Positions 31,448 to 46,804 of a stretch of 61,750 nt of DNA are shown piece by piece; the first letter of the stretch is position 1, and the number at the start of each line of letters is the position of its first letter. Position numbers and translations under genes: made by a program. Origin of the DNA: Acidocella sp. (GTDB lineage: Bacteria; Pseudomonadota; Alphaproteobacteria; Acetobacterales; Acetobacteraceae); the NCBI GenBank assembly GCA_026224875.1, contig JAMFRU010000002.1, positions 1-61,750 on the forward strand, written 5' to 3'. Below the pieces are notes generated by a model that saw only the letters and a list, made by a program, of their open reading frames with translations, did not search any database and was not told the origin of the DNA.

Positions 31448-32656
31448 TTAAAGATAATTGAACAGGCTGAGGTTCTGCACGGTGCCGAAGGTTTTCATCG
31501 CGGCCTGCAAGGCTGTCATTGTCTGGTCCAGTGCCGCGATGGCGACCGGCGTGTTAACGGCTGTGGCGTTATCCACGTTGGTCTGCGCCTCGGTGGATTG
31601 GTTGGTATTGCCGGTGCCGGTGGCGCTGATGGCCTCCAGCGTAACGCCGTTCTGCGCCTGCGCCGTGGTGACGGTCTGCTGATACTGGGCGATGCCGGCC
31701 AGATCCTGGTTGAGCACCTGATTGGTCTGCGCCACCTGCGCCGGAGTGCTGCCGGCACTGGCCAAAGCGGAGGCGATGGATTTGAGCAAAGTGAAGGCCG
31801 ATTGCGTGCGGGCCGGGGCGATGGTGAAACTATCACCGCTCGCGGGCGTGCCGGTGATGTTGTAATCTACACCTGCGAGCTGCACGCTGGTGCCCGAGCT
31901 GCCGGCGGTGGTGAGCGTGCCGGTGGCGAGGGTGGAGCCCCCTTGCGTCGCGGTGTAGCTGTTGCCGGTGCCGAAGGTGATGGTGATGGGCGCATTGCCC
32001 TGCTGGAATGTGTTGGCGGCGCTGGCATTGACCGTGCCCTCGGGGATGACCTGGCCCGTGCCGGTATTCGCGGCGGTGGCACTCACTACACCTACGCCAT
32101 CGCCCTGCAAAGCCGAGACGAAGACCGTGCCGCTGGCGATGGTGCTGGCGGTCGAGGCCTCGCCGATATTGGCCTGGGAGGCGCCACCGTCGCCGAAATA
32201 AACAATGTTGCCGGAAGCATCCGCCTGGAACGGTGCCACGGCACCCCGCGAGCCGCCGAATAAATAAGTGCCGTTGGGCGCGGTGGTGTTGCCGAGGGCG
32301 AGCAACTGCTGTGCTGCCGATGTCACCTGGCCGGCGAGCGCATTCATGTTCTGGCTGTTGGTGGTGCCGTTGAGCGCCTGTTCGACAATGCCCTGCACAT
32401 TGTTAAGCAAAGAGGTCATCGAGCTATAGGCGTTATTGGCCGTGCCGAGCTGCACCTGGATGGAGGCCTGGGTAGTGTCGTCATTGGCGAGCCGCGCGAC
32501 CTGGTCGGTGCCGAGCGCCCCCGTCTCATAGGCAGCGGGATTCTGGTCCGGCGTCTGCACGGTAAGCCCGGTGGATATCTGCTGTTGCAGCACGTTAATT
32601 TGCGCTTCCTGCGCCGCCAGCGAAGAGGTGAAATTGGAGTAAAAAGATAAATCCAT
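31448..32656 (-). CDS. flgL: Flagellar hook-filament junction protein FlgL
   Basis: The 402-residue protein begins SFYSNFTSSLAAQEAQINVL, with the flagellin-like N-terminal coil (QQQISTGLTVQTPDQNPAAY), and ends with a matching C-terminal coil (ALDQTMTALQAAMKTFGTVQNLSLF). The middle is Ser/Thr/Gly-rich. FlgL forms the second junction ring between hook and filament. The ATG at 32656 has a perfect TTAAGGAG upstream; the frame open to 33058 is a shadow of fliJ. FlgK is in the other arm. Confidence 0.9.
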   Translation of the reverse strand: MDLSFYSNFTSSLAAQEAQINVLQQQISTGLTVQTPDQNPAAYETGALGTDQVARLANDDTTQASIQVQLGTANNAYSSMTSLLNNVQGIVEQALNGTTNSQNMNALAGQVTSAAQQLLALGNTTAPNGTYLFGGSRGAVAPFQADASGNIVYFGDGGASQANIGEASTASTIASGTVFVSALQGDGVGVVSATAANTGTGQVIPEGTVNASAANTFQQGNAPITITFGTGNSYTATQGGSTLATGTLTTAGSSGTSVQLAGVDYNITGTPASGDSFTIAPARTQSAFTLLKSIASALASAGSTPAQVAQTNQVLNQDLAGIAQYQQTVTTAQAQNGVTLEAISATGTGNTNQSTEAQTNVDNATAVNTPVAIAALDQTMTALQAAMKTFGTVQNLSLFNYL

Positions 32657-32699
32657 GGTGGTGCTCCTTAACGGGGCTGGGTGAGAGAGGAGGTGCTGT

Positions 32700-33122
32700 T
32701 CATGCGCGGCGCCCGCTGAATTTATGGGGCCGGTCGCGGTCGGCTTTTTGTTCGGATTCGGTATCGGCCTTGGCCGCGGCGGCACGTAATTGCGCCGCCA
32801 GTTTGCGGCGGTGGGATTTGAGCTGGACGAGGGCTTCCGTGGCATCGTGCAACTGCGCCGCGGCCGTGGCTTCGGCGGCTTCGATCTGTACCGCGGCGTT
32901 CTGCGCGCCGGTCGCGAACTGGCTGGCACGGCGGGCCAAGGCCGCGGCGATCGGCGTGCCATCCTGCCAGCTGGCCGCGAGGCGGTCTCGGTAGGACTTA
33001 AGCACCTGCCGCTGCTGCTGGTTTTGCGCGAGCGTGCTGGCGTGCCTGCGCACTTCATCCTGCGCCTGCACCTCGCGCGCGGCGGCCAGCATATCGAGCC
33101 GGGCGATGGTACGGGTTTTCAT
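32700..33122 (-). CDS. fliJ: Flagellar export protein FliJ (putative)
   Basis: The 140-residue protein is a charged, Ala/Gln-rich coiled coil throughout, with the FliJ-like pattern of basic N-terminus (RLDMLAAAREVQAQDEVRRH) and long helices. It overlaps the fliI stop by 4 bases, the usual fliI-fliJ order. FliJ links the ATPase FliI to FlhA and acts as an escort for export substrates. The weak sequence conservation of the family leaves the call to context and coil content. Confidence 0.75.
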   Translation of the reverse strand: MKTRTIARLDMLAAAREVQAQDEVRRHASTLAQNQQQRQVLKSYRDRLAASWQDGTPIAAALARRASQFATGAQNAAVQIEAAEATAAAQLHDATEALVQLKSHRRKLAAQLRAAAAKADTESEQKADRDRPHKFSGRRA

Positions 33123-34474: not shown

Positions 34475-35112
34475 GTGCCGTCCTTCAAACCAAGCGCGGT
34501 GCGGATGGTTTCAAGACGGCCATGCATCGTGGCATCCCATTCGATCTTGTCGACCGGATCGCCATCCGGCGTGATGATTTCCACACATGCGCCGCCGGGG
34601 GCGATTTTATCATCGGCGACAAGCTGCGCGGCCTCGGGCGCGATGCGGCCTTCGAGCTGCAGCTGGTCCGCCGGGTTGAGGCGCAGGCGCAAAACCTGCC
34701 GCGCACCGCGCTCGGCAGCGGCTTCATCCAGCAGTTTGGTGACAAGGCCAAGCAGGCCGCCGGCGCCGTTCTCAACGCCGAGGCTGATGTGGCTGGCGAG
34801 CAGAAAGGCAAGCTCGACGGAAAGCTCGGCGAGATCGCGCTCCTTCTGCGCCAGCGGAGCGATGAGCTGTCCAGCCGCCTCCTGCAAGGCGGTGATGGCG
34901 GTTTCCAGCACGGCGGCGCGGGGTGCCATCAAGGCCCGGCTATCGGCATCGCCGGTGGCATGGCCTTCAGCCTCGGCGGCCGCGCGCAGTTTACCCACCT
35001 CCTGGCGCACACGGCGCGCGATTTCGGCCTCGCGCGCGGCAGCTTCGGCGGCATCCAGTGACAGCACATTCTGCACGAAGGCTTTATTGCGTGAGATGGT
35101 AACGAAACTCAT
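34471..35112 (-). CDS. fliH: Flagellar assembly protein FliH
   Basis: The 213-residue protein has a helical N-terminal half rich in Ala/Glu/Arg and a C-terminal domain homologous to F/V-type peripheral stalk subunits (LRLNPADQLQLEGRIAPE, then GGACVEIITPDGDPVDKIEW). FliH regulates FliI and holds it to the C ring. It overlaps fliI and the upstream small gene by 4 bases each. Confidence 0.87.
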   Translation of the reverse strand: MSFVTISRNKAFVQNVLSLDAAEAAAREAEIARRVRQEVGKLRAAAEAEGHATGDADSRALMAPRAAVLETAITALQEAAGQLIAPLAQKERDLAELSVELAFLLASHISLGVENGAGGLLGLVTKLLDEAAAERGARQVLRLRLNPADQLQLEGRIAPEAAQLVADDKIAPGGACVEIITPDGDPVDKIEWDATMHGRLETIRTALGLKDGT

Positions 35113-35363
35113 GGTTCGGCACCGTCACGCTGCATGGTTTTCATGGCGCGGCCGAAGATGGTGCCTGCCATGCCAAGCACCGGCGTGAACAGCGCCAGAG
35201 CGGCACGGGTGAGGAGTGCCACGGTGCAGGCGCTGCATATCCACACACCGACGCTGGCGGGGGTGAAAATTCCCGGCTCATTGGCTGCCGCCCAGCCGGT
35301 CATCGCGGCCAGAGTGAGCATAAAGGGACTGAGAAGGGCTTTGCGCTTTACTGATTTTGCCAT
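35109..35363 (-). CDS. Small membrane protein of unknown function in the flagellar operon
   Basis: The 84-residue protein has a basic N-terminus (MAKSVKRKALLSPF) and two or three hydrophobic segments (LTLAAMTGWAAA, VGVWICSACTVALLTRAALALF and TPVLGMAGTIFG). No family is recognised. It overlaps fliH by 4 bases and starts nine bases after motB, so it is translated with them; a role at the export gate or stator is possible but unproven. Confidence 0.6.
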   Translation of the reverse strand: MAKSVKRKALLSPFMLTLAAMTGWAAANEPGIFTPASVGVWICSACTVALLTRAALALFTPVLGMAGTIFGRAMKTMQRDGAEP

Positions 35364-37018: not shown

Positions 37019-37599
37019 AGCACCGGGTTTCCTTTATGGGCAGCGTTGATGGTGATAGCGAGACTCTCCAGCGCACGCTTGCGCAAACGTGAGGCGTAGC
37101 CTTCCGAGACATCGAGGATCGCCGCGATCTCGCGGTTGTTCATATCGTCGTAAAAATGCATGGCGAGAATCTGGAACTCCAGCCGCGGCAGGGTTTTGAG
37201 TGCGGCGGTCAGCATGTCGCGGTTATCGGCGCTGGTAAGCAGGCTGAGCGGGTCCTGCGGCGAGGTGCCGGCCGCAACCGCGGCATGTTCCACATCCTCC
37301 AGCTCAAACATAATCTGGCCGCGCCGGCTCGCCCCTTCGCGGCGTAACCCGTCGATCATGGCACCGCGGATGCGCCGGCTGGCGAAGGCCTGAAAACTGA
37401 CGCCATGCGAGGTATCGAATCTTTGCATCGATTCCAGCATGCCGATGGCACCCCATTGCAGCAATTCATCAAGCTCCGCCCAGGGCATTCTCGATCTCAG
37501 CAGCAGCGCCATACGCTTGATCCAGCCACCATAAAGTGCCGTGATCGACGCTGTGCCGAGTTGATCGGAGCCGGCGCCAAGCGGGCGGATCTCAGCCAT
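37015..37599 (-). CDS. fliA: Flagellar sigma factor (sigma-28/FliA-WhiG type), short form
   Basis: The 194-residue protein has sigma region 2 at about 20-90 (DELLQWGAIGMLESMQRFD, FASRRIRGAMIDGLRRE) and region 4 at about 128-182 (TLPRLEFQILAMHFYDDM, then NNREIAAILDVSEGYASRL). Only about 40 residues lie between them, so the region 3 helices found in E. coli FliA (239 residues) appear to be missing. It should direct RNA polymerase to late flagellar promoters and be held by FlgM. The gene overlaps motA and flhA. Confidence 0.85.
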   Translation of the reverse strand: MAEIRPLGAGSDQLGTASITALYGGWIKRMALLLRSRMPWAELDELLQWGAIGMLESMQRFDTSHGVSFQAFASRRIRGAMIDGLRREGASRRGQIMFELEDVEHAAVAAGTSPQDPLSLLTSADNRDMLTAALKTLPRLEFQILAMHFYDDMNNREIAAILDVSEGYASRLRKRALESLAITINAAHKGNPVL

Positions 37600-39685
37600 T
37601 CACCACTCCCGGCTCAGCACTTTGCACCACCTGCAGCGGCATCGTGTCGGGGATTTCCTCCAACGCCACCACGGGGATAAGCCCGGCCGCCGCCCTCGCC
37701 ACCGCACGGCGCAAAGCGGCGGGCACGACCAGCACGGGCTTCAGGCCGCGCGCGCGCATGGATTTGGCAGCCTGCTCCGCCGCCTGGCGCAGATGCTGCG
37801 CGGTCTCCGCCTCGACCTCGGCGCCGATGGCATTGTCCTTGGAAGTGCGCAAGGATTTACCGATCAGCTCCTCCAGTTTGGAGGGGAGTACGGCAACGCG
37901 GAACGCAGGATCAGCACCGGTAATCTGGCTGACGATGAAACGCCCAAGACGCAGACGCACGGCCGCAAGAAGTTTGTCTGGGTCCTTGGCACCACCGTCG
38001 CCCGCTTCCACCAACGCCTCGGCAATGCGCTCGAAATCGCGGATCGGCACTTCCTCGGCCAGCAGCCCCTGCAGCACCTGGCGCACCATGCCCACGGAGA
38101 GGGTGTTGCGTAAATCTTCAGCCAAGCGCGGCGTGGTTTCTGCAAGGCGGGTGAGCAGGCCTTCGACCTGCGGCCGCCCCAACAACTCAGCACCGTGCCG
38201 TTTGAGGATTTCGGCAAAATGCGTGGCCATGGCGGAAGGCGCGTCCACCACCGTATAGCCAAGCTCTTCCGCAATCGGAATGGAACCCTGCGGCACCCAG
38301 ACCGCCGCCTGGCCAAAAGCGGGGTCTTTAACCGGGCGGCCGATGCTGAGTTTTTCCACCACCATCGGGCCCTCGATGGCGAGCCATTGGCCGGGCCAGG
38401 CCTCGCCCCCGCCGATAGCCGCACCGCGCAAAGTGAAGCGGTAGCCATGCGCCGGCAAATCCGAGGAATCGCGCACATGCACGGCTGGCACCAGAAACCC
38501 CATGGCGCGGCCGTAGCGCTGGCGCACGGCGGTAAGGCGGTTGAGCAGCCGCCCCTCGCCCTGGCCAACCAGCGGAGCGAGGCCAAAGCCAATGTTCATG
38601 CCCAGGGGATCGACGCCGGTAACATCCACCAGCGAATCGCTTTTTACCTCTGCCGGGGCGGGCAAAGCCTTGGCGGCGGCCTCCGGCGAGGCGGCAATTT
38701 TCGCGGCGCGGTCCAGCCGCCAGGCGGCGGTGCCAAGTGCGGTGGCCAGCAGCAGAAACGGTATATGCGCCATTTGCGGCACCAGCCCGATGGCCCCGGT
38801 AATGGCCGCGGCAATGGCTAACGCTTGCGGGTATTTGGCAAGCTGCGACCTGATCTGCTCGCCGATATCCTCGCCGGTGGCAACACGCGTAACCACAAGC
38901 CCAGCCGCGACCGAGATGGTAAGCGAGGGGATCTGTGCGGCCAGCCCATCGCCCACCGTAAGCAGCGTATAGGTGCGCGCGGCATCGGCCAGCGGCAGCC
39001 CGTATTGCAGCGTGCCAATGATGAGCCCGCCCAGCATGTTAACGACCAAGATGATCATGGCGGCCACGACATCGCCGCGCACGAATTTGGAGGCGCCGTC
39101 CATGGCGCCGAAAAAATCCGCCTCGCGGCGCAGATTATCGCGCCTGCGCTCAGCGGCAGCTGGGGAGAGCAGCCCGGCGTTGATCTCAGCATCGATTGCC
39201 ATCTGCCGCCCGGGCAGAGAATCCAGCATGAAGCGGGCGGAAACCTCGGCGACGCGGCTCGCGCCTTTGGTGACGACAGTGAAATTGATGATGATGAGAA
39301 TGAGAAAGATGATGCCGCCAACAACATAATTACCGCCGACCGCAAACTGGCCGAAGGACTCGATGACATGCCCGGCCGCACCAGGCCCAGTATAGCCGTT
39401 AAGCAGAATCGCGCGGGCGGTGGCAACGTTGAGCGCCAGACGCATCAGCGTGGTGGCCAGCAGCACCGAGGGAAAGGAGGAAAATTCCGACGGCGAGGGG
39501 ATGTAGAGCGAGGCGCCAAGAATGACCAGCCCCGCCGAAATATTCAGCGCGAACAGAAACGAAATTGCCGCCGGGGGCAGTGGCACCACCAGCATGACCA
39601 GCACCAGCAGAATGACAATGGGGCCGGAGAGCTGAGTGAAGCTGAGCGCGCCCGGGGGACGCGGCAGCGTAAGCGCATTAGCCAT
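37592..39685 (-). CDS. flhA: Flagellar export gate protein FlhA
   Basis: The 697-residue protein has an N-terminal half of about eight membrane segments with the FHIPEP-like region (VTKGASRVAEVSARFMLDSL, then MAIDAEINAGLLSPA). The cytoplasmic C-terminal half binds chaperones and FliHIJ. Start ATG at 39685 has GGAG upstream and overlaps the fliQ stop; the ORF continues to 39706. It is a main export-gate component with FlhB and FliPQR. Confidence 0.95.
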   Translation of the reverse strand: MANALTLPRPPGALSFTQLSGPIVILLVLVMLVVPLPPAAISFLFALNISAGLVILGASLYIPSPSEFSSFPSVLLATTLMRLALNVATARAILLNGYTGPGAAGHVIESFGQFAVGGNYVVGGIIFLILIIINFTVVTKGASRVAEVSARFMLDSLPGRQMAIDAEINAGLLSPAAAERRRDNLRREADFFGAMDGASKFVRGDVVAAMIILVVNMLGGLIIGTLQYGLPLADAARTYTLLTVGDGLAAQIPSLTISVAAGLVVTRVATGEDIGEQIRSQLAKYPQALAIAAAITGAIGLVPQMAHIPFLLLATALGTAAWRLDRAAKIAASPEAAAKALPAPAEVKSDSLVDVTGVDPLGMNIGFGLAPLVGQGEGRLLNRLTAVRQRYGRAMGFLVPAVHVRDSSDLPAHGYRFTLRGAAIGGGEAWPGQWLAIEGPMVVEKLSIGRPVKDPAFGQAAVWVPQGSIPIAEELGYTVVDAPSAMATHFAEILKRHGAELLGRPQVEGLLTRLAETTPRLAEDLRNTLSVGMVRQVLQGLLAEEVPIRDFERIAEALVEAGDGGAKDPDKLLAAVRLRLGRFIVSQITGADPAFRVAVLPSKLEELIGKSLRTSKDNAIGAEVEAETAQHLRQAAEQAAKSMRARGLKPVLVVPAALRRAVARAAAGLIPVVALEEIPDTMPLQVVQSAEPGVVNG

Positions 39686-39941
39686 GCAGAAACTCCGGAA
39701 TCGCAATGATCAAACGGGTCGCGTAATCCTCAACACCGCTCAGCATGAAATTGCCGGCGACGATTGTTAGCAGAGCAAGGCCGCCCAGCTTGAGCACGAA
39801 GGGAATGGAGGCCTCACGCACCTGCGTCGCGGTTTGCAGAATGCCAACTCCCAAACCAATAACGAGCATGGCCAGCAGGACGGGGCCGGCGAACTGCGCA
39901 AAGGCGAGCCAGGCGCCGGTGCTGATGCTGGTGGCGCTCAT
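39678..39941 (-). CDS. fliQ: Flagellar export gate protein FliQ, copy 1
   Basis: The 87-residue protein has two membrane segments and the FliQ core GLGVGILQTATQVREASIPF. FliQ is part of the FliPQR export pore. It overlaps fliMN and flhA. A second FliQ-like gene lies at 57611-57886 in the fliOPQR order; this copy matches the enteric FliQ core (ISILQAATQINEMTLSFIPK) more closely. Confidence 0.9.
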   Translation of the reverse strand: MSATSISTGAWLAFAQFAGPVLLAMLVIGLGVGILQTATQVREASIPFVLKLGGLALLTIVAGNFMLSGVEDYATRLIIAIPEFLHG

Positions 39942-41197
39942 CCCACACCGCCGCTTTCCGCATCCGCATCCTCGGCCAGAGCGGTGACACGCACACCGTA
40001 ACGGTCGTTGGACACCGCCACGACCTCGCCATAGGCGAGCTTTTGCCCATTGGCGAAAATCGCCAGCGGTTCACCCACCATCTGGTCCAGCGACACGATC
40101 TGGCCATGCCGCAGCGCGCGTAGATCTTTCACCGTGATCTGTGTGCGGCCGAGCTCGACGGTGAGCGCCACCTGCACCCGGTCCAGCACATTGCGCGCGG
40201 TAATGGCAGGCCCCCCGCGCGGCTGCGCCTGGATGCGTTCGAGTTCAACCCGCTCCGGTTCGGCCAGTTTTTCACTGGCACTGGTGCGTTCTTTTTGTTC
40301 AACCATATCCGTATCTCCTTCCGGTACCGATTTAACGCGGCAGCAGACATGCCCTTCCGCCTGCCCATATTCGGCACGAAATAAATCGACGTCGCCGGAA
40401 ACCGCGATGGCATCGGGCGACAATGTGAATGGTAAAATATCGCCCGGCCGCAAAGTTTCGAAAATGCCAAGCGGCACGATGGCGCGGGCAAGTTCAAAGC
40501 GTATGTCGACCGGTGTGGTTTCGGTCAACGTCTCGATCGCGGTGGTCCAGCCGGCATCCGCACCGCGGCCACCGAGCAGGCCGGATTGGTTTGCAACCTT
40601 GATCTCCAGGGGCTCGAACCCGGCGTAAGGCGCAATAAGTTTAATCGTGCCTGAGCCAAGCGAGGTTTCAAAAATCCCGGTAACGGCAATCATCCAATCC
40701 TGGCCGTCGGCCACAGCCAGCATGCCGGTGGCGTTTTCATAAGCAATCGGCTTCGGGTCGAGCTGCACCAGCGGTGCCAATATCTCCGCGATCGTCTCCA
40801 GCGAAAGATCGATCATCTGCTTGCCGACGCGGGTTTCCAGTGCCGAGAGCTCGTAACGCTCAAACGGATGGGATGAGTTGGCGCCGCACATGGCATCGAC
40901 CACGGCACCGATGAGATCGCCGTCAATGGCTAGCAGCATGCGGCCCCGTAACGGTGCCAGCTCGCATATGCCGGCGAGCATGACCTCGGGCAAAGCCGAC
41001 ATGGCGGATTCATGGCTAATGACATTGTTGATGCAGGACAGCAGCTGCACCGAATGGCGCATGCGCTGGAACAAAGTGAAAGCGATCTGGCGCATGAAGC
41101 GGTCGGACAGGTTTTCCATGAGCAGCGAGCGCAGGAGCGGTGCCCGCATGGAGTCGAGCAGATCGATGATTTCGACATCGCCGTGTTCTTCAAGCAT
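39938..41197 (-). CDS. fliM: Flagellar switch protein FliM-FliN fusion
   Basis: The 419-residue protein combines a FliM middle domain (about 35-195), a first SpoA domain (about 215-290; PVDIRFELARAIVPLGIFE), a charged linker (about 291-335) and a second SpoA domain of FliN type (about 340-410; VQVALTVELGRTQITVKDLR). No separate fliM or fliN gene is in the cluster. The N-terminus (DVEIIDLLDSM) only loosely resembles the FliM CheY-binding peptide. An internal ribosome binding site with ATG at 40306 could yield free FliN. The C ring needs several FliN per FliM, so two products would make sense. The start overlaps fliK by 8 bases. Confidence 0.88.
   Translation of the reverse strand: MLEEHGDVEIIDLLDSMRAPLLRSLLMENLSDRFMRQIAFTLFQRMRHSVQLLSCINNVISHESAMSALPEVMLAGICELAPLRGRMLLAIDGDLIGAVVDAMCGANSSHPFERYELSALETRVGKQMIDLSLETIAEILAPLVQLDPKPIAYENATGMLAVADGQDWMIAVTGIFETSLGSGTIKLIAPYAGFEPLEIKVANQSGLLGGRGADAGWTTAIETLTETTPVDIRFELARAIVPLGIFETLRPGDILPFTLSPDAIAVSGDVDLFRAEYGQAEGHVCCRVKSVPEGDTDMVEQKERTSASEKLAEPERVELERIQAQPRGGPAITARNVLDRVQVALTVELGRTQITVKDLRALRHGQIVSLDQMVGEPLAIFANGQKLAYGEVVAVSNDRYGVRVTALAEDADAESGGVG
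40304..40320 (-). promoter_or_regulatory. fliN: Internal Shine-Dalgarno and ATG for a separate FliN
   Basis: On the minus strand AAGGAG (40315-40320) is followed by eight bases and ATG (40306-40304), the best spacing for E. coli-type initiation. The ATG is codon 298 of fliMN and in frame. Initiation there gives a 122-residue protein ending at 39938, with the length and domain of FliN. This resembles internal starts in sctQ/spaO. Confidence 0.75.
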
Positions 41198-42638
41198 AGG
41201 CGCTCACCCCGCCGGGGCCAAACGTATCTGCATCAAAACTAATTATTTGTGGCGTGGCGGTCTGGGAGGCCGGCGGCTGGTAGCCCCCCTGCCCCGCGTT
41301 CTGGTTGAACTGCCCGCCGACCTGCGCCTGGCCCAAAGTAATACCCGATTGCGCCAGTGCCGCGCCAAGCCCGCTGAGGTTATTCTGCAGGGCCGTACTG
41401 GCATCCTGGGTGGAGGGGATAAACAGCACGTTGACCTGCCCGTTTTGCGCCAGCCCAACATGCACTGAGAGTGTGCCAAGGCCTGGCGGGTCCAGCCGCA
41501 GCACCGCACCACTTTGCCCGGCCTGGTGCATGGCCGTGACCGCTGCGGCGAGACCGGCGGTGCTGGGCTGGATAACCGGCAAAGCACCGCTTGCCGCAAC
41601 GGCCGCGGGTTGCGCCGTGGCGGTGGTCTGGGTGAGTGTAGAAGTGGTAACGGGAAGCGCGCCGATGGTTGGCTTGTCGGAATTCTCGTCCGTCTTATCC
41701 GCCGGTGTAACGGGGAGAGCGGGTGCATCGTCCGGGCTGATGGTGGTAAGCGCGATCTTGTTGCTACTGGCGGCGTTCACGCTGGCCATAGCCGTCGCCA
41801 CCACACGGGTTGTTGTGGATTTATCAGTATTTGTTGCGGTAACGGATTGTGGTGCGACGGTGTTCGGCATGGCATTGCTAAGCGGGGCAGTACCGGGCGT
41901 GGCGATAGCCGCAGCCGATGTAGTTGCAGCGGCAAGTAGTGTGCCGCCGGAGCCGGTTTGGGGCAGCGTGGCAGCATGCGCCGTGCTGGCTGGCTTGCTC
42001 GCAGGCGTGATGTTGCTTTGGCCGGCGGGCGGGGTTGCTGACGCAGTGATGTCTGGCAGGGCCGCAACTGTTGGCGTGCCCATGGCCGGCATGGCGGGTG
42101 TTGCGGCGGTTACTGTTCCGGCATCTATCTTGCCGGTTGCGATTTTACTTGCATCTGTCTGGCTAGATTCAATTTTGCCCGCATCTGTTTTTCCGGCATC
42201 CGTTTTGCTTGTGCCCGGCGTGGTGTTGGGCTGGCTCGGATCCGCCACTGAGGCAACAACCGGTTGCACCACAGCTCCCACCGCCTGCTTTGCAGTATCT
42301 TTGGTATGCTGCGGCACCTGTGCCGTGGTGGCGCCGGCCTGCAAAGCGGCAGGTTTTTTGCTGTGTTGAGACAATGTTTTTTCCGTGGCGGAAAACACTG
42401 GCTGTGCCGCCGCGGCGAGCTTGGCCGCGGTATCCGGCACTGCCGTTTTATCGCCGGATTTCGCCGGGGGTTTTGGATCTTCCGGGCGCGCCGCCGACGC
42501 CACATCCGTGGCCTCACCCGTGGCCTGAGAAACCGCATCCTGCCAGCTAGCCGCATCAGGCATTGCCGTCGCGGAGGTGCTTGTCACGGAGGTGCTTGTT
42601 ACGGAAGTTGCAGTTGTCGCGATGATCGTCTGCATCAT
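41190..42638 (-). CDS. fliK: Flagellar hook-length control protein FliK
   Basis: The 482-residue protein is Ala/Thr/Pro/Gln-rich and low-complexity for its first 350 residues, including degenerate repeats of the type K-T/I-D-A-G near residues 145-175. The C-terminal domain has the FliK core VLRLDPPGLGTLSVHVGLAQ. FliK measures hook length and switches FlhB specificity. It overlaps fliG and fliMN. Confidence 0.88.
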   Translation of the reverse strand: MMQTIIATTATSVTSTSVTSTSATAMPDAASWQDAVSQATGEATDVASAARPEDPKPPAKSGDKTAVPDTAAKLAAAAQPVFSATEKTLSQHSKKPAALQAGATTAQVPQHTKDTAKQAVGAVVQPVVASVADPSQPNTTPGTSKTDAGKTDAGKIESSQTDASKIATGKIDAGTVTAATPAMPAMGTPTVAALPDITASATPPAGQSNITPASKPASTAHAATLPQTGSGGTLLAAATTSAAAIATPGTAPLSNAMPNTVAPQSVTATNTDKSTTTRVVATAMASVNAASSNKIALTTISPDDAPALPVTPADKTDENSDKPTIGALPVTTSTLTQTTATAQPAAVAASGALPVIQPSTAGLAAAVTAMHQAGQSGAVLRLDPPGLGTLSVHVGLAQNGQVNVLFIPSTQDASTALQNNLSGLGAALAQSGITLGQAQVGGQFNQNAGQGGYQPPASQTATPQIISFDADTFGPGGVSAYA

Positions 42639-43657
42639 ACCATCTCCTCTGTCGCGCTGATGGTAATTCGCCCTTCGCCCGCGAGGCGCAAAGCCACTTC
42701 AACAATATCACTCTGCGCCGAGAGTGCATCCGCCCGGCGAATGGGCGGGCCGGAGCGCAGCTCCTCCTTGAGAATTTCCACTTGGCGCGCAGAGAGATTC
42801 TGGAAGAACCGGGCGCGCAGGGTTTCATCCACCAGGCGCAAAGCCGGGGCCAGTTTTTCGCTCTGCACTTCGCGCAGCAATATCTGCATCGAACGGTCGG
42901 TAAGCTTACCTAGATCGATGAAGGTAAACAGGTTCTCGCGGATTTTCTCAGCGGTTATGGCGTCGCGTATGTCGATGGAACTCAGCACCATATCAGACAT
43001 CGCCGAAGGAAAATGGTTTAATATATCCGCCGTCTGTTTGGCGCCGCCAAGGTTGGTGACACGCCTGCCGACACTGCCCGACGCGCTCATCAACTCCTCC
43101 AGCATGTCGCGCAATTCTATGACGACATTCGGCGATACGACATCGAGCGTGGAGAAACGGTACAGCGCCTCAGCCGCCAACGGCTCCGGCAGAAAGGTGA
43201 GGAGATTGGCACCCATTTCATGCGGAATATGTGCCAGCAGCAGCGCAATGGTCTGCGGCCGCTCATTGGAAACCTGCATCGCCAAAGTGCGCGCATCCGC
43301 ATTCGCCGGCAGATGAAATGCGGAGCGCCGCTCGGTCCGGCTCAGCCGCTCCAATATTTCGCGCGCCTGCGTCTCGCCCAATGCCGAGACCAGCACGCGG
43401 TTGAGGAATTTCATGCCGTCGCCGCCAACGCCGGTAATGCCGAGCTCGCCCGCGAAGGTGAGCATGATATCCTCGCGCACATCCGGGGGCACCGCCTTCA
43501 GCGTCGTCATGGCAATCGAGATGCGGTTCACCGCGGCTTCGTCCATCTCGCGCAGCACGGCGGCAGCGGTACCCTCGCCCAGTTCACGCAGCACCATCGC
43601 CGCGCGCTCCGGCCCGCTCATGCCGGGGCCGGAAAGTTGTTTCTGTGCCTCACTCAT
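42635..43657 (-). CDS. fliG: Flagellar motor switch protein FliG
   Basis: The 340-residue protein has FliG N (GPERAAMVLRELGEGTAAAV), middle (ERPQTIALLLAHIPHE) and C domains with the torque helix region DLGKLTDRSMQILLREVQSE. It forms the rotor contact with MotA and binds FliF. It overlaps fliF and fliK. Confidence 0.95.
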   Translation of the reverse strand: MSEAQKQLSGPGMSGPERAAMVLRELGEGTAAAVLREMDEAAVNRISIAMTTLKAVPPDVREDIMLTFAGELGITGVGGDGMKFLNRVLVSALGETQAREILERLSRTERRSAFHLPANADARTLAMQVSNERPQTIALLLAHIPHEMGANLLTFLPEPLAAEALYRFSTLDVVSPNVVIELRDMLEELMSASGSVGRRVTNLGGAKQTADILNHFPSAMSDMVLSSIDIRDAITAEKIRENLFTFIDLGKLTDRSMQILLREVQSEKLAPALRLVDETLRARFFQNLSARQVEILKEELRSGPPIRRADALSAQSDIVEVALRLAGEGRITISATEEMV

Positions 43658-45161
43658 TATCTTCCGCCCAATTCTGCAACAGGCGCGCCACGCCTGGAAT
43701 GTTATCAGCCGCCTGCTCGCGCAGATCGGAGAAGTCGCGTGGGGGCAGCACCACCGGCAGCGCGCGCGGCTGCACCGGCAGGTAGGCCTGGATATTCAGC
43801 GCCGCGAGCCGCTTGCCCGCCGGCACGGCAAAGCCGAACAGCAAGGCGGCCGCTGCCATCATCTCCAGCACCGCCTGCGCCAGAGGCGGCACCGCGGCAA
43901 TGAACGGGGCGGCGGCCAGCTGGCTCGGCGGCGCCTGGAACAAGGCCGCCAACACGTTGACGCTGACGTTAGGATAGGCGAACGCGCCTGAAATGGCGGC
44001 TTTGACCTGATCCAGCGTGACCGAGCCGGTGAGGGAGGCTTTGTTCAACACCACCGAAACCGCAACGGATTTGACAGCCCAATCCGGATTGATGATATCC
44101 GCATCACTTTCATCGATCGCATAGGTCTGATCAGTGTTCGAGCTGCTCTGCTTCGGCAGTGCCGGCTTGCTGTTTTTGCCGCCACCGGCATCACCCGTGC
44201 CGGCAGGCTGGCTGGGCGTGGCCGTGGTGGCCGATGGCGGCTCGTTGGACAACGCACCGGGAATGCCCATCGCCAGCGAGCTGCCGTCCATCTGCATCGA
44301 TTGCGACAAAACCTGGTGCGAAACCAGATGCCCGGGCCCGTAAGTGATCTGATGGATATGTTCCTGCGTGAAATCGAGATTTGCGGAAACATCAGTCTGG
44401 AAATTCCCAGCACCCACCAGCGGGATCAGCAAGGCGGCGACACGTGCCGCAGCATCCGCCTCAATCTGCGCCGTGGTTTGCAACTGCGTGCCGGCATTGG
44501 TAGCATCGCCTGCCGGGAACACGGTGACGCCGGCGGTGGTTTCCACCGTCACCTCGCCAGCGGCCAGCCCCGGCACCGCGCCGGCGACGAGATTGGCAAT
44601 GGCCTCCCCCTGGCTCTGTGCCGCCGCCTGATCCGCCTCGATGACGACCGAAGCAGCCGGCTTGGGTTGGTCGGCGAGAAAGGGCGTGTCCTGCGGCAAA
44701 GCCAGAAATACCTGCGCGCTATGGATGCCGCTCATGCTTTGGATGGATTGCTGCAGCGATAATTGCAGCGCCTGCTGCGCCATCGTCGATTGCGCCAGAT
44801 CCGAGGCGGTCATCGGTGCATTTTCCAGCTGGGACCAGGCGGTTTGCACATCGGAGCCCGGCACCTGCAGCTGGCCCAGCTGCAGCCGCGCCTGGGCCAG
44901 CTGCGGCGCCGGCACCATGATGATATTGCCCGCCGCCTGCAGCTGGTAAGGAATGCCAAGCTTCTGCAATTGCGCGATCACCTTGCCGCCATCAGCCGGC
45001 GCCAGGCCCTCATTGAGCACCACATAGGGTGGGCCCGCCAGCTCCAACCAGAGAACGACGCCAAGCGAGGCCAGAATGGCAACACCGACTGCCCAGAACA
45101 GCTTTGGCAGCGCCGCCAGATTTTGCACCACACGGGCCAGGATTTGACGCCAGTCAGCCAT
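43650..45161 (-). CDS. fliF: Flagellar MS-ring protein FliF
   Basis: The 503-residue protein has two membrane segments (about 20-45 and 420-445), ring-building motifs in between (YVVLNEGLAPADGGKVIAQL, and GSDVQTAWSQLENAPMTASD), and a C-terminal FliG-binding tail (DLREQAADNIPGVARLLQNW). It is shorter than enteric FliF (about 550). It forms the base in the inner membrane. It is followed by fliG, and fliE lies two bases upstream. Confidence 0.95.
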   Translation of the reverse strand: MADWRQILARVVQNLAALPKLFWAVGVAILASLGVVLWLELAGPPYVVLNEGLAPADGGKVIAQLQKLGIPYQLQAAGNIIMVPAPQLAQARLQLGQLQVPGSDVQTAWSQLENAPMTASDLAQSTMAQQALQLSLQQSIQSMSGIHSAQVFLALPQDTPFLADQPKPAASVVIEADQAAAQSQGEAIANLVAGAVPGLAAGEVTVETTAGVTVFPAGDATNAGTQLQTTAQIEADAAARVAALLIPLVGAGNFQTDVSANLDFTQEHIHQITYGPGHLVSHQVLSQSMQMDGSSLAMGIPGALSNEPPSATTATPSQPAGTGDAGGGKNSKPALPKQSSSNTDQTYAIDESDADIINPDWAVKSVAVSVVLNKASLTGSVTLDQVKAAISGAFAYPNVSVNVLAALFQAPPSQLAAAPFIAAVPPLAQAVLEMMAAAALLFGFAVPAGKRLAALNIQAYLPVQPRALPVVLPPRDFSDLREQAADNIPGVARLLQNWAEDNE

Positions 45162-45478: not shown

Positions 45479-45950
45479 GACAAGCCTGCTCCCCACATCG
45501 CCGTTAACTGCACAGCTGGCAACCTCAGAACCCCGTATTGTATCTTCATTTTCTTCAGAAAATTTCTATTCATGTAGCATTCACCTCTTAACGAAACTCT
45601 AATCCTCTTCAGCATCGCATGACGCCGGCAGCGTAAAGCCGGGGTGGATGCCATGCATGAGATGGAGATAAAGGACGCGGGCTAATGGTTTCTTAAAAAC
45701 GCACCCGCCGGTGTACATTGTTAATCGAAACCGCTTAAAATCCTGTGGATATTTTATCCGGGCGTACCGCTGGAGGGCGCAGCACCCTCTATAGAGAAGG
45801 GACGGCACGGCGCGGGGGGCCTTAAACAAAATCTACCCGGGAGTTTTTATAAGAGACGGCATCAGCGAGGCCGTCTTAACCGCGCTTCAACACTTTCCGG
45901 GCACGATGGGTCATCCCCGCGCAAAATCAGCCGAATGGAGCCCTTTATCG
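45479..45950. promoter_or_regulatory. Divergent control region between fliE and cheY
   Basis: The 472-base gap separates the two flagellar arms, so it should hold promoters both ways. GC content is lower than in the genes. It contains the hairpins GAGGG-cgcagca-CCCTC (45773-45789) and GACGGC-atcagcgag-GCCGTC (45856-45876). The second is followed by TTAA. No clear sigma-28 or sigma-54 box was found. Confidence 0.5.
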
Positions 45951-46322
45951 ATGCCAACAATTCTTGTCCTCGACGACTCAGCCACAATGGTGATGAGCCT
46001 GTCGCATATACTCAAGGGCGCCGGATACGACGTCGAAACCGGCATGAACGGAAGGGAAGGCATCACCAAGCTGACCGACGGCATCAAGCCCGCGGTTATC
46101 CTGACCGATCTCAACATGCCCGAGCTCGACGGTATCGGCTTTATCAAGGAGGCGCGCAAAATCGCCTCCACGCGTTTCACGCCGATCATCGTGCTCACCA
46201 CGGAATCCGGCGGGCGCAAGCGCGATGAAGCGCGGGCGGCCGGCGCCTCGGGCTGGCTGACCAAGCCGGCGGAGCCGAACCAGCTGCTGTCCGTCGTCAA
46301 ACAACTCTGCCCCACACGCTGA
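45951..46322 (+). CDS. cheY: Response regulator CheY
   Basis: The 123-residue single receiver domain has the acidic pair Asp8/Asp9, phosphoacceptor Asp53 in LTDLNMP, Thr83/84 in VLTTES and Lys105 in WLTKP. Phospho-CheY binds the flagellar switch. It is the first gene of the plus arm. The ATG at 45951 has GGAG ten bases upstream. No CheA is in the window, so the kinase is elsewhere. Confidence 0.9.
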   Translation: MPTILVLDDSATMVMSLSHILKGAGYDVETGMNGREGITKLTDGIKPAVILTDLNMPELDGIGFIKEARKIASTRFTPIIVLTTESGGRKRDEARAAGASGWLTKPAEPNQLLSVVKQLCPTR

Positions 46323-46333
46323 GGAATCCCACC

Positions 46334-46804
46334 ATGGGTGAAACAGCCGAAGCCAATGAACGGATTGTCTGCGCCATTCTGGCCGAACAAGTCGCAGCAC
46401 TGCGCGAGCGTATGGACTCAACCGCGACCTTTGAACTGCTCTGGCGCACCTCCGCTCTGCTCTCCTGGTTGTCAGGCCTGCTCGGCGATGTGTCCGCGCA
46501 ATCCGCCCATGCTGCCTCTGTCAACGCCAGCCATCCCAACCCTGTGCTGGAGCGCGAGCGGGAGGAGGCGATTACCGAGATCGCGGAAATCCGGCGTGCG
46601 TTGGACGATCTGGCATTTCTCCAGGCTCAGCGCCATGATTTTGCCAAGCAGATCGCCGATTGCGTGGTCATCGCGTTGGAACGCATGGCCGTGGCGGAAA
46701 TGCCCGCGGGCACGAGCTTCTCCTCGGCCGATCTCGCGGCTTTATATGTCAGTGCCGACCAGCGTAAATTGCATGACGATGTGATCCACCGCCTCGGGCT
46801 CTAA
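46334..46804 (+). CDS. CheZ-like CheY phosphatase (putative)
   Basis: The 156-residue helical protein starts 11 bases after cheY. Its long helix contains LAFLQAQRHDFAKQIADCVV with Asp102 and Gln106 in the D-x3-Q spacing of the CheZ catalytic motif (in E. coli QDFQDLTGQ). Its C-terminus, KLHDDVIHRLGL, resembles the CheY-binding tail of CheZ (QVDDLLDSLGF). The middle, about residues 60-80, is likely flexible. E. coli CheZ is 214 residues, so this is shorter. The assignment is by eye and needs a profile search; no standard family was otherwise recognised. Confidence 0.6.
   Translation: MGETAEANERIVCAILAEQVAALRERMDSTATFELLWRTSALLSWLSGLLGDVSAQSAHAASVNASHPNPVLEREREEAITEIAEIRRALDDLAFLQAQRHDFAKQIADCVVIALERMAVAEMPAGTSFSSADLAALYVSADQRKLHDDVIHRLGL

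Follow-up and report, generated by a model that had tools for sequence, protein, structure and literature searches.

A naturally fused fliM-fliN gene with a conserved internal start in Acidocella flagellar clusters

Two-product genes and the Acidocella locus

The injectisome protein SctQ is produced in a long form carrying SpoA1 and SpoA2 and, through an internal start, in a C-terminal form carrying SpoA2 only (PMC13059759), and it has been equated with a FliM-FliN fusion together with free FliN (PMC4832279). In flagella, the FliM:FliN ratio is 1:3 in T. maritima (PMC4832279), and the Salmonella C-ring model comprises 34 FliM and 102 FliN (PMC11087270). Alternative initiation has been hinted at in fliY of Thermotoga maritima and reported within fliN of E. 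coli (PMC4832279). These two cases resemble the gene described below in that a FliN-like product from the internal start of a flagellar gene has been suggested, but they are not FliM-FliN fusions, as far as that source says. Extra FliN could complement a Salmonella fliM-fliN fusion mutant (Kihara 1996, as cited in PMC4832279), which by analogy suggests a need for free FliN. This mutant and the fusions 4yxb and 4yxc share the fusion order of the Acidocella gene; they are a laboratory mutant and laboratory constructs, whereas the Acidocella gene is natural and carries a conserved internal start. No report of a natural flagellar FliM-FliN fusion was found in the open-licence PMC literature, among the matches listed.

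Acidocella is an acid-loving bacterium. The stretch of DNA analysed here (61,750 nucleotides, hereafter the window) contains a single open frame on the minus strand (39938..41197), encoding 419 amino acids, in which fliM and fliN are fused. As the original prediction had it, the frame runs from a FliM middle domain (residues 27-198, 40604..41119; Pfam PF02154, 2.5e-16) through a FliM-type C-terminal domain, SpoA1 (40325..40522; PF01052, 40.7 bits), and a linker (residues 292-332, 40202..40324) to the FliN domain, SpoA2 (39977..40186; PF01052, 75.3 bits), all on the minus strand. The two FliMN_C matches inside this frame are the only ones in the assembly (145 contigs, 95% complete), which bears out the claim that the cluster holds no other fliM or fliN; the same scan found no second fliN elsewhere in this genome.

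The gene order, all on the minus strand, is fliF (43650..45161; TIGR00206, above cut-off), fliG (42635..43657; FliG_N, FliG_M and FliG_C), fliK (41190..42638; PF02120), the fusion gene, whose start is overlapped by fliK over 8 bases, fliQ (39678..39941; PF01313) and flhA (37592..39706; PF00771, 7e-220), followed by a sigma factor, motA, motB, fliH and fliI. By our reading of the ORFs, hook-type genes occupy the other flank of the cluster. The possibility that the gene encodes an injectisome SctQ was considered, as it would share the architecture of a long and a short product and the SctQ model TIGR02551 gives a match (69.6 bits, best over residues 294-407), albeit below its cut-off of 100.8. 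The FliM model TIGR01397 scored higher (132.1 bits, itself below its cut-off of 219.6), the window flhA reached 708 bits with the FlhA model versus 513 with that of SctV (both below cut-offs), and the neighbours are those of a flagellum (fliF, fliG, fliK, fliQ, motA, motB and hook-type genes) and not of an injectisome cluster. The probability of an SctQ identity is therefore negligible, and the gene neighbourhood rules it out.

The FliM assignment is in line with the order of a FliM middle domain followed by FliMN_C, and with the fold comparisons. The best PDB sequence match of our profile was the engineered Salmonella FliM(SpoA)::FliN fusion 4yxb (5e-31), followed by FliM and FliN of the Salmonella C ring. 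In the AlphaFold2 model (mean pLDDT 73.9, with a modest pTM of 0.50) the FliM middle domain, SpoA1 and SpoA2 were folded, and Foldseek placed C-ring FliM chains at ranks 1-7 and 4yxb/4yxc at ranks 8-10, the middle domain matching FliM middle domains. Since the pTM was only 0.50, the pairing of SpoA1 with SpoA2 was taken from 4yxb. Residues 292-332 had low confidence (pLDDT below 50) and aligned variably, and they are probably disordered. Thus, the gene resembles canonical flagellar fliM and fliN in its domains, cluster, closest folds and closest sequences; it differs from them in being fused in one frame, in scoring below the NCBIfam FliM and FliN cut-offs and in missing a match to FliM residues 1-33, as the profile alignment begins at residue 34 of Salmonella FliM (window residues 1-26, about 41197..41120, minus strand). 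The loop at residues 105-107 (about 40885..40877, minus strand) reads GAN, and its Salmonella counterpart GGDG; GGXG is a FliG contact. Switching and FliG contacts may differ from those of Salmonella. CheY binds residues 1-16 of FliM (PMC11087270), and the first 17 residues of the fusion, predicted to be disordered, keep a D-L-L pattern that is possibly a derived CheY-binding motif.

The internal start and its conservation across the genus

Within the linker, AAGGAG (40320..40315, minus strand) lies 8 bases 5' of an in-frame ATG (from 40306), which opens an internal ORF of 122 codons (39938..40306) for a putative free FliN; both elements had been named in the original prediction and were read on the minus strand. 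This part alone holds FliMN_C only (Pfam, 6e-21). It scores 77.5 bits with the FliN model TIGR02480, below the cut-off of 84.05, as does a lone FliN from a relative (L038, 74.1 bits). The predicted masses are 45.3 kDa for the full-length protein and 13.2 kDa for the product of the internal ATG. As the internal start falls inside the low-confidence stretch, the short product would be a complete FliN. For a chance baseline, 237 in-frame internal ATGs were taken from 32 window ORFs, hand-picked from a mechanical ORF list; 6-base Shine-Dalgarno (SD) matches at proper spacing preceded three of them, ATG 40306 included, and in one genome alone the internal SD and ATG are only suggestive of more than chance. 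With an assumed anti-SD, pairing was estimated at -12.4 kcal/mol for the internal and -11.5 kcal/mol for the main start. Because the main start is also estimated to pair well, the product ratio is not readable from the sequence.

The same SD and ATG would serve equally well on a transcript from an internal promoter or on a processed mRNA, and free FliN might then arise mainly from such a transcript. A scan of 39900..41300 on either strand, covering sigma-70 type promoters only, found none versus a shuffled mean of 0.6, which speaks weakly against an internal promoter; we regard this route as the main source of free FliN as very unlikely and prefer initiation at two starts on one mRNA.

Of 37 further genomes of the genus, 30 carry the fusion, intact in 29 and cut by contig ends in one (G025). 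Among the remaining seven, six gave no fusion match and G028 carried separate fliM and fliN in another gene set. Two of the six have related genes: in G019, a frame of 334 residues contains one SpoA and there is a distant FlhA, and a close relative of the window flhA (88%) lies at the end of a G029 contig; the other four showed no SpoA and no FlhA of this kind. The separate fliN and fliM of G028 (L040, L041) belong to a different flagellar gene set, a hint at flagella exchange within the genus. Two fused copies each are present in G004 (L026 and L036) and G037 (L022 and L035). L035 and L036, the second copies, are each part of a full flagellar cluster and form the deepest branches among the fused genes in the FliM tree, with weak support.

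The alignment comprised 32 full-length fused genes, the window gene included; the cut gene pieces of G025 (L033, L034) were left out of the counts, and two genes of the genus g94 (L086, L089) lay outside the set. The frame was open across the junction in the window gene and in all 31 others, with a linker of variable length. Gene order was checked at 24 loci, largely from the same genomes as the fusion count: fusion-fliQ-flhA was seen at 23 and the whole fliF-fliG-fliK-fusion-fliQ-flhA order at 19, the rest being cut by contig or stretch ends. As alternative origins of the long frame, the original prediction had offered a fliM stop lost only recently or an erroneous base. Two genomes of a related genus do have a stop directly before the fliN ATG, and the predicted GGT TGA in another frame after the ATG is present, recurring after the aligned ATG only in L018, L019 and G025. 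However, an open fusion in 30 of 37 other genomes, including those of named isolates of A. aromatica, A. aquatica, A. aminolytica and A. facilis, leaves this explanation virtually no probability; the independent orthologues rule it out.

An ATG aligned with window codon 298 was present in 27 of the 32 genes, inside the variable linker. An SD of at least 5 bases at proper spacing preceded 24 of these 27 ATGs versus 1 of 345 other in-frame ATGs in the same genes; 20 of the 27 had at least 6 bases, and three (L013, L027, L035) had only a 4-base SD. The cut gene L033 also has the ATG and AAGGAG, spaced as in the window. Because the elements are conserved across relatives, the internal start is considered to stand beyond chance. 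In a shuffle test, which ignored relatedness, the seven upstream codons were redrawn from each gene's own synonymous codons in 5000 trials; an SD of at least 5 bases arose in a mean of 8.8 and a maximum of 17 of the 27 genes, versus 24 observed. In a subset of 11 genes below 80% identity, which corrects only partly for relatedness, 9 such sites were observed versus a shuffle maximum of 8, and for at least 6 bases 5 were observed versus 1.9 on average in the shuffles (P 0.008). A glycine codon lies under the SD (window residue 294); it was GGA in all 24 genes (of the 27) that have this glycine, whereas in 23 other conserved glycine columns GGA occurred in at most 4 of up to 27 genes. We read the fixed GGA and the conserved SD as selection acting on the DNA and not on the protein. 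In 25 of the 27 genes the internal SD was estimated to pair more strongly with an assumed anti-SD than that of the main start; the medians were -9.5 and -5.9 kcal/mol, respectively.

The fusion might in principle build the C ring alone, the internal ATG and SD being unused relics of a once separate fliN. A relic start would be expected at first if in-frame neighbours fused, and engineered Salmonella fusions retained flagellin secretion and some swarming (PMC4443714). Nevertheless, the SD and ATG persist down to about 50% identity in a linker that otherwise changes freely, and GGA is fixed against codon usage; these data, and the distribution of separate fliN genes described below, render the relic explanation highly improbable. 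A start in use, which would yield free FliN, fits the conservation better.

Fused genes without the internal start

Five of the 32 fused genes lacked the aligned ATG: those of G006, G010, G017 and G031, and L036, the second flagellar-cluster copy of G004. In L036, ATGATGATG with AAGGA occurs about 10 codons downstream. In L032 (G006), a purine-rich stretch is kept at the aligned place (estimated pairing -11.5 kcal/mol) with no ATG, and a GTG follows too closely. The fused genes of G006, G010, G017 and G031 adjoin a CheY-like gene; by our reading of the flanking sequence available, cheA comes next in the three with enough flank, cheW is present in two and cheR with cheB in one. In G006, G010 and G017 a lone fliN (119-129 residues) lies between fliK and fliQ, the place of the fusion elsewhere. 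Consistently, two of five genomes of the genus g94 have a fused gene beside chemotaxis-type genes (by reading) and a lone fliN in the flagellar cluster; the linker codons scanned in these two fused genes (L086, L089) contained no start in frame that was preceded by an SD of 5 bases or more. Thus, six chemotaxis-side fused genes have no SD-preceded internal ATG, and five of the six genomes (G006, G010, G017, G130 and G254) carry a lone fliN at the ancestral place. In the sixth, G031, no lone fliN was seen, and the assembly also lacks the whole flhA region. A PF01052 scan found no lone fliN in the window genome or in any of nine dual-start genomes examined. Loss of the internal start and gain of a lone fliN were reciprocal, and the fact that five of the six genomes without the start have a separate fliN argues further against relics. 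Judged by gene content, this other lineage has split the roles between a fused gene without an internal start beside chemotaxis genes and a lone fliN in the old place. The gap between fliK and the lone fliN is about 55-75 bases (L037, 3868..3930; L038, 4310..4383; L039, 4444..4498), and the SD sites of the lone fliN starts are mostly weak.

In the FliM tree, the six chemotaxis-side copies grouped as a single clade (94), which was nested among dual-start genes with that of G004 as its neighbour (93); as one clade, they count as one event and not five. The lone FliN fell into two groups in the FliN tree, those of g94 with L036 (92) and the others with G004 (54). This leaves the order of the split unsettled, and FliM may have been lost on more than one occasion from the flagellar-cluster side. 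The deep nodes are weak (32-51 in the FliN tree, 48-56 in the FliM tree), leaving early events unsettled.

The constraint on SpoA2 was compared between the two kinds of fused genes. Among 28 flagellar-cluster genes (the 27 with the aligned ATG and L036), mean SpoA2 conservation exceeded that of FliM in all seven identity bins (66% at 46% FliM identity, 84% at 75%). Among the six chemotaxis-side genes, the fused SpoA2 was less conserved than FliM in all 15 pairs (60 vs 80 and 74 vs 89% identity; 31-46 vs 54-59% between the two genera). Between G006 and G010, identities were 80% for FliM, 60% for the fused SpoA2 and 90% for the lone FliN; lone FliN identity was 82-90% within G006, G010 and G017, 78% in g94 and 56-60% between them. 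This pattern is as expected if SpoA2 of the dual-start genes doubles as free FliN. As the orthologues conserve both the fusion (30 of 37 genomes) and the internal SD (24 of 27 versus 1 of 345), and the split lineage, a natural control, agrees, the two-product reading of the original prediction is supported: with the fusion and its conserved second start, free FliN is very probably also made.

Origin, proposed assembly and neighbouring genes

In two of five genomes of the genus g99, fliM and fliN are separate genes that share a frame, the fliN ATG being immediately preceded by TAA or TAG, and the gene order is the same. An old loss of the fliM stop is thus the likely origin of the fusion; losing a single stop codon could have joined the two genes and left a fliN start in place. 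In G965, from another alphaproteobacterial family, separate fliM and fliN overlap slightly in different frames, and G992 resembles G965 by tblastn. A search of the family with profile A1 (E <= 1e-30) matched 8 of 249 genomes, namely five of the same genus (window included), two of g94, both fused, and one of g99 with a stop between fliM and fliN; within these genera, A1 matched two of five genomes each in g94 and g99. In the class, no match beyond that of the window was found in 385 genomes at E <= 1e-30, a threshold that could miss divergent fusions. In the phylum, 185 of 398 genomes matched at E <= 1e-14 and, besides that of the window, no run of FliM into SpoA2 without a stop was seen among the matches listed (to about E 2e-17).

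We consider it highly likely that one mRNA with two translation starts supplies the flagellar C ring with both the FliM-FliN fusion and free FliN. From the sequences we infer the production of both proteins, the ratio between them and the way they assemble, as follows. Start 1 (41197, overlapping the end of fliK) would yield the 45-kDa fusion, in which SpoA1 and SpoA2 would pair within one chain, and start 2 (ATG 40306, with its own AAGGAG) a free 13-kDa FliN made of a flexible N-terminal arm and SpoA2. A homodimer of two free FliN would then attach to each fusion, so that a ring unit would hold one FliM SpoA and three FliN SpoA, as in other flagella. Since one fusion and two free FliN amount to one FliM and three FliN, the usual 1:3 content is probably kept, and the changed stoichiometry that had been predicted need not follow.

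The predicted parallel to SctQ/SpaO is apt as a working analogy. Like the SctQ family (YscQ, SpaO, Spa33, SsaQ, HrcQ), the Acidocella gene would give two products, and it has a conserved in-frame internal start with an SD between SpoA1 and SpoA2. Unlike SctQ, it has a FliM middle domain and lies in a fliF-fliG-fliK-fliQ-flhA cluster, and it should build a rotating ring. The fusion probably arose separately from SctQ, from neighbouring fliM and fliN, and would be convergent. On balance, we favour the broader view that these flagella arrived at the SctQ solution independently, a pair of starts on one mRNA fixing the subunit ratio in a rotating C ring at one fusion to two free FliN, and that the relatives keep the whole series: separate genes, genes one stop apart, the dual-start fusion, and a re-split lineage whose fused subunit lies beside chemotaxis genes with its SpoA2 freed from the double constraint. 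Cultured Acidocella species carry the gene, among them the strains A. aromatica DSM 27026 (L052) and A. aminolytica DSM 11237 (L061), making the SctQ-type idea testable in a rotating motor. At stake are whether the ring requires, for each FliM, one covalently joined and two free FliN, by what means translation would set this ratio, and how a gene with two products originates and is later split.

Several other genes of the window were recorded. Beside fliF and divergent from it lie a single-domain, CheY-like response regulator (45906..46322, plus strand) and an unknown protein of 156 amino acids (46334..46804, plus strand); the split-lineage fused gene (L043-L045) adjoins a response regulator similar to the former. 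An 84-residue protein without a Pfam match, membrane-like by eye, is encoded between motB and fliH (35109..35363, minus strand), and a small ORF after motB at L088 (12304..12576) has a similar place. In the mechanical ORF at 31448..33058 (minus strand), the flagellin N domain does not begin until residue 140; roughly the first 130 residues look low in complexity and may reflect the frame of another gene or a wrong start.
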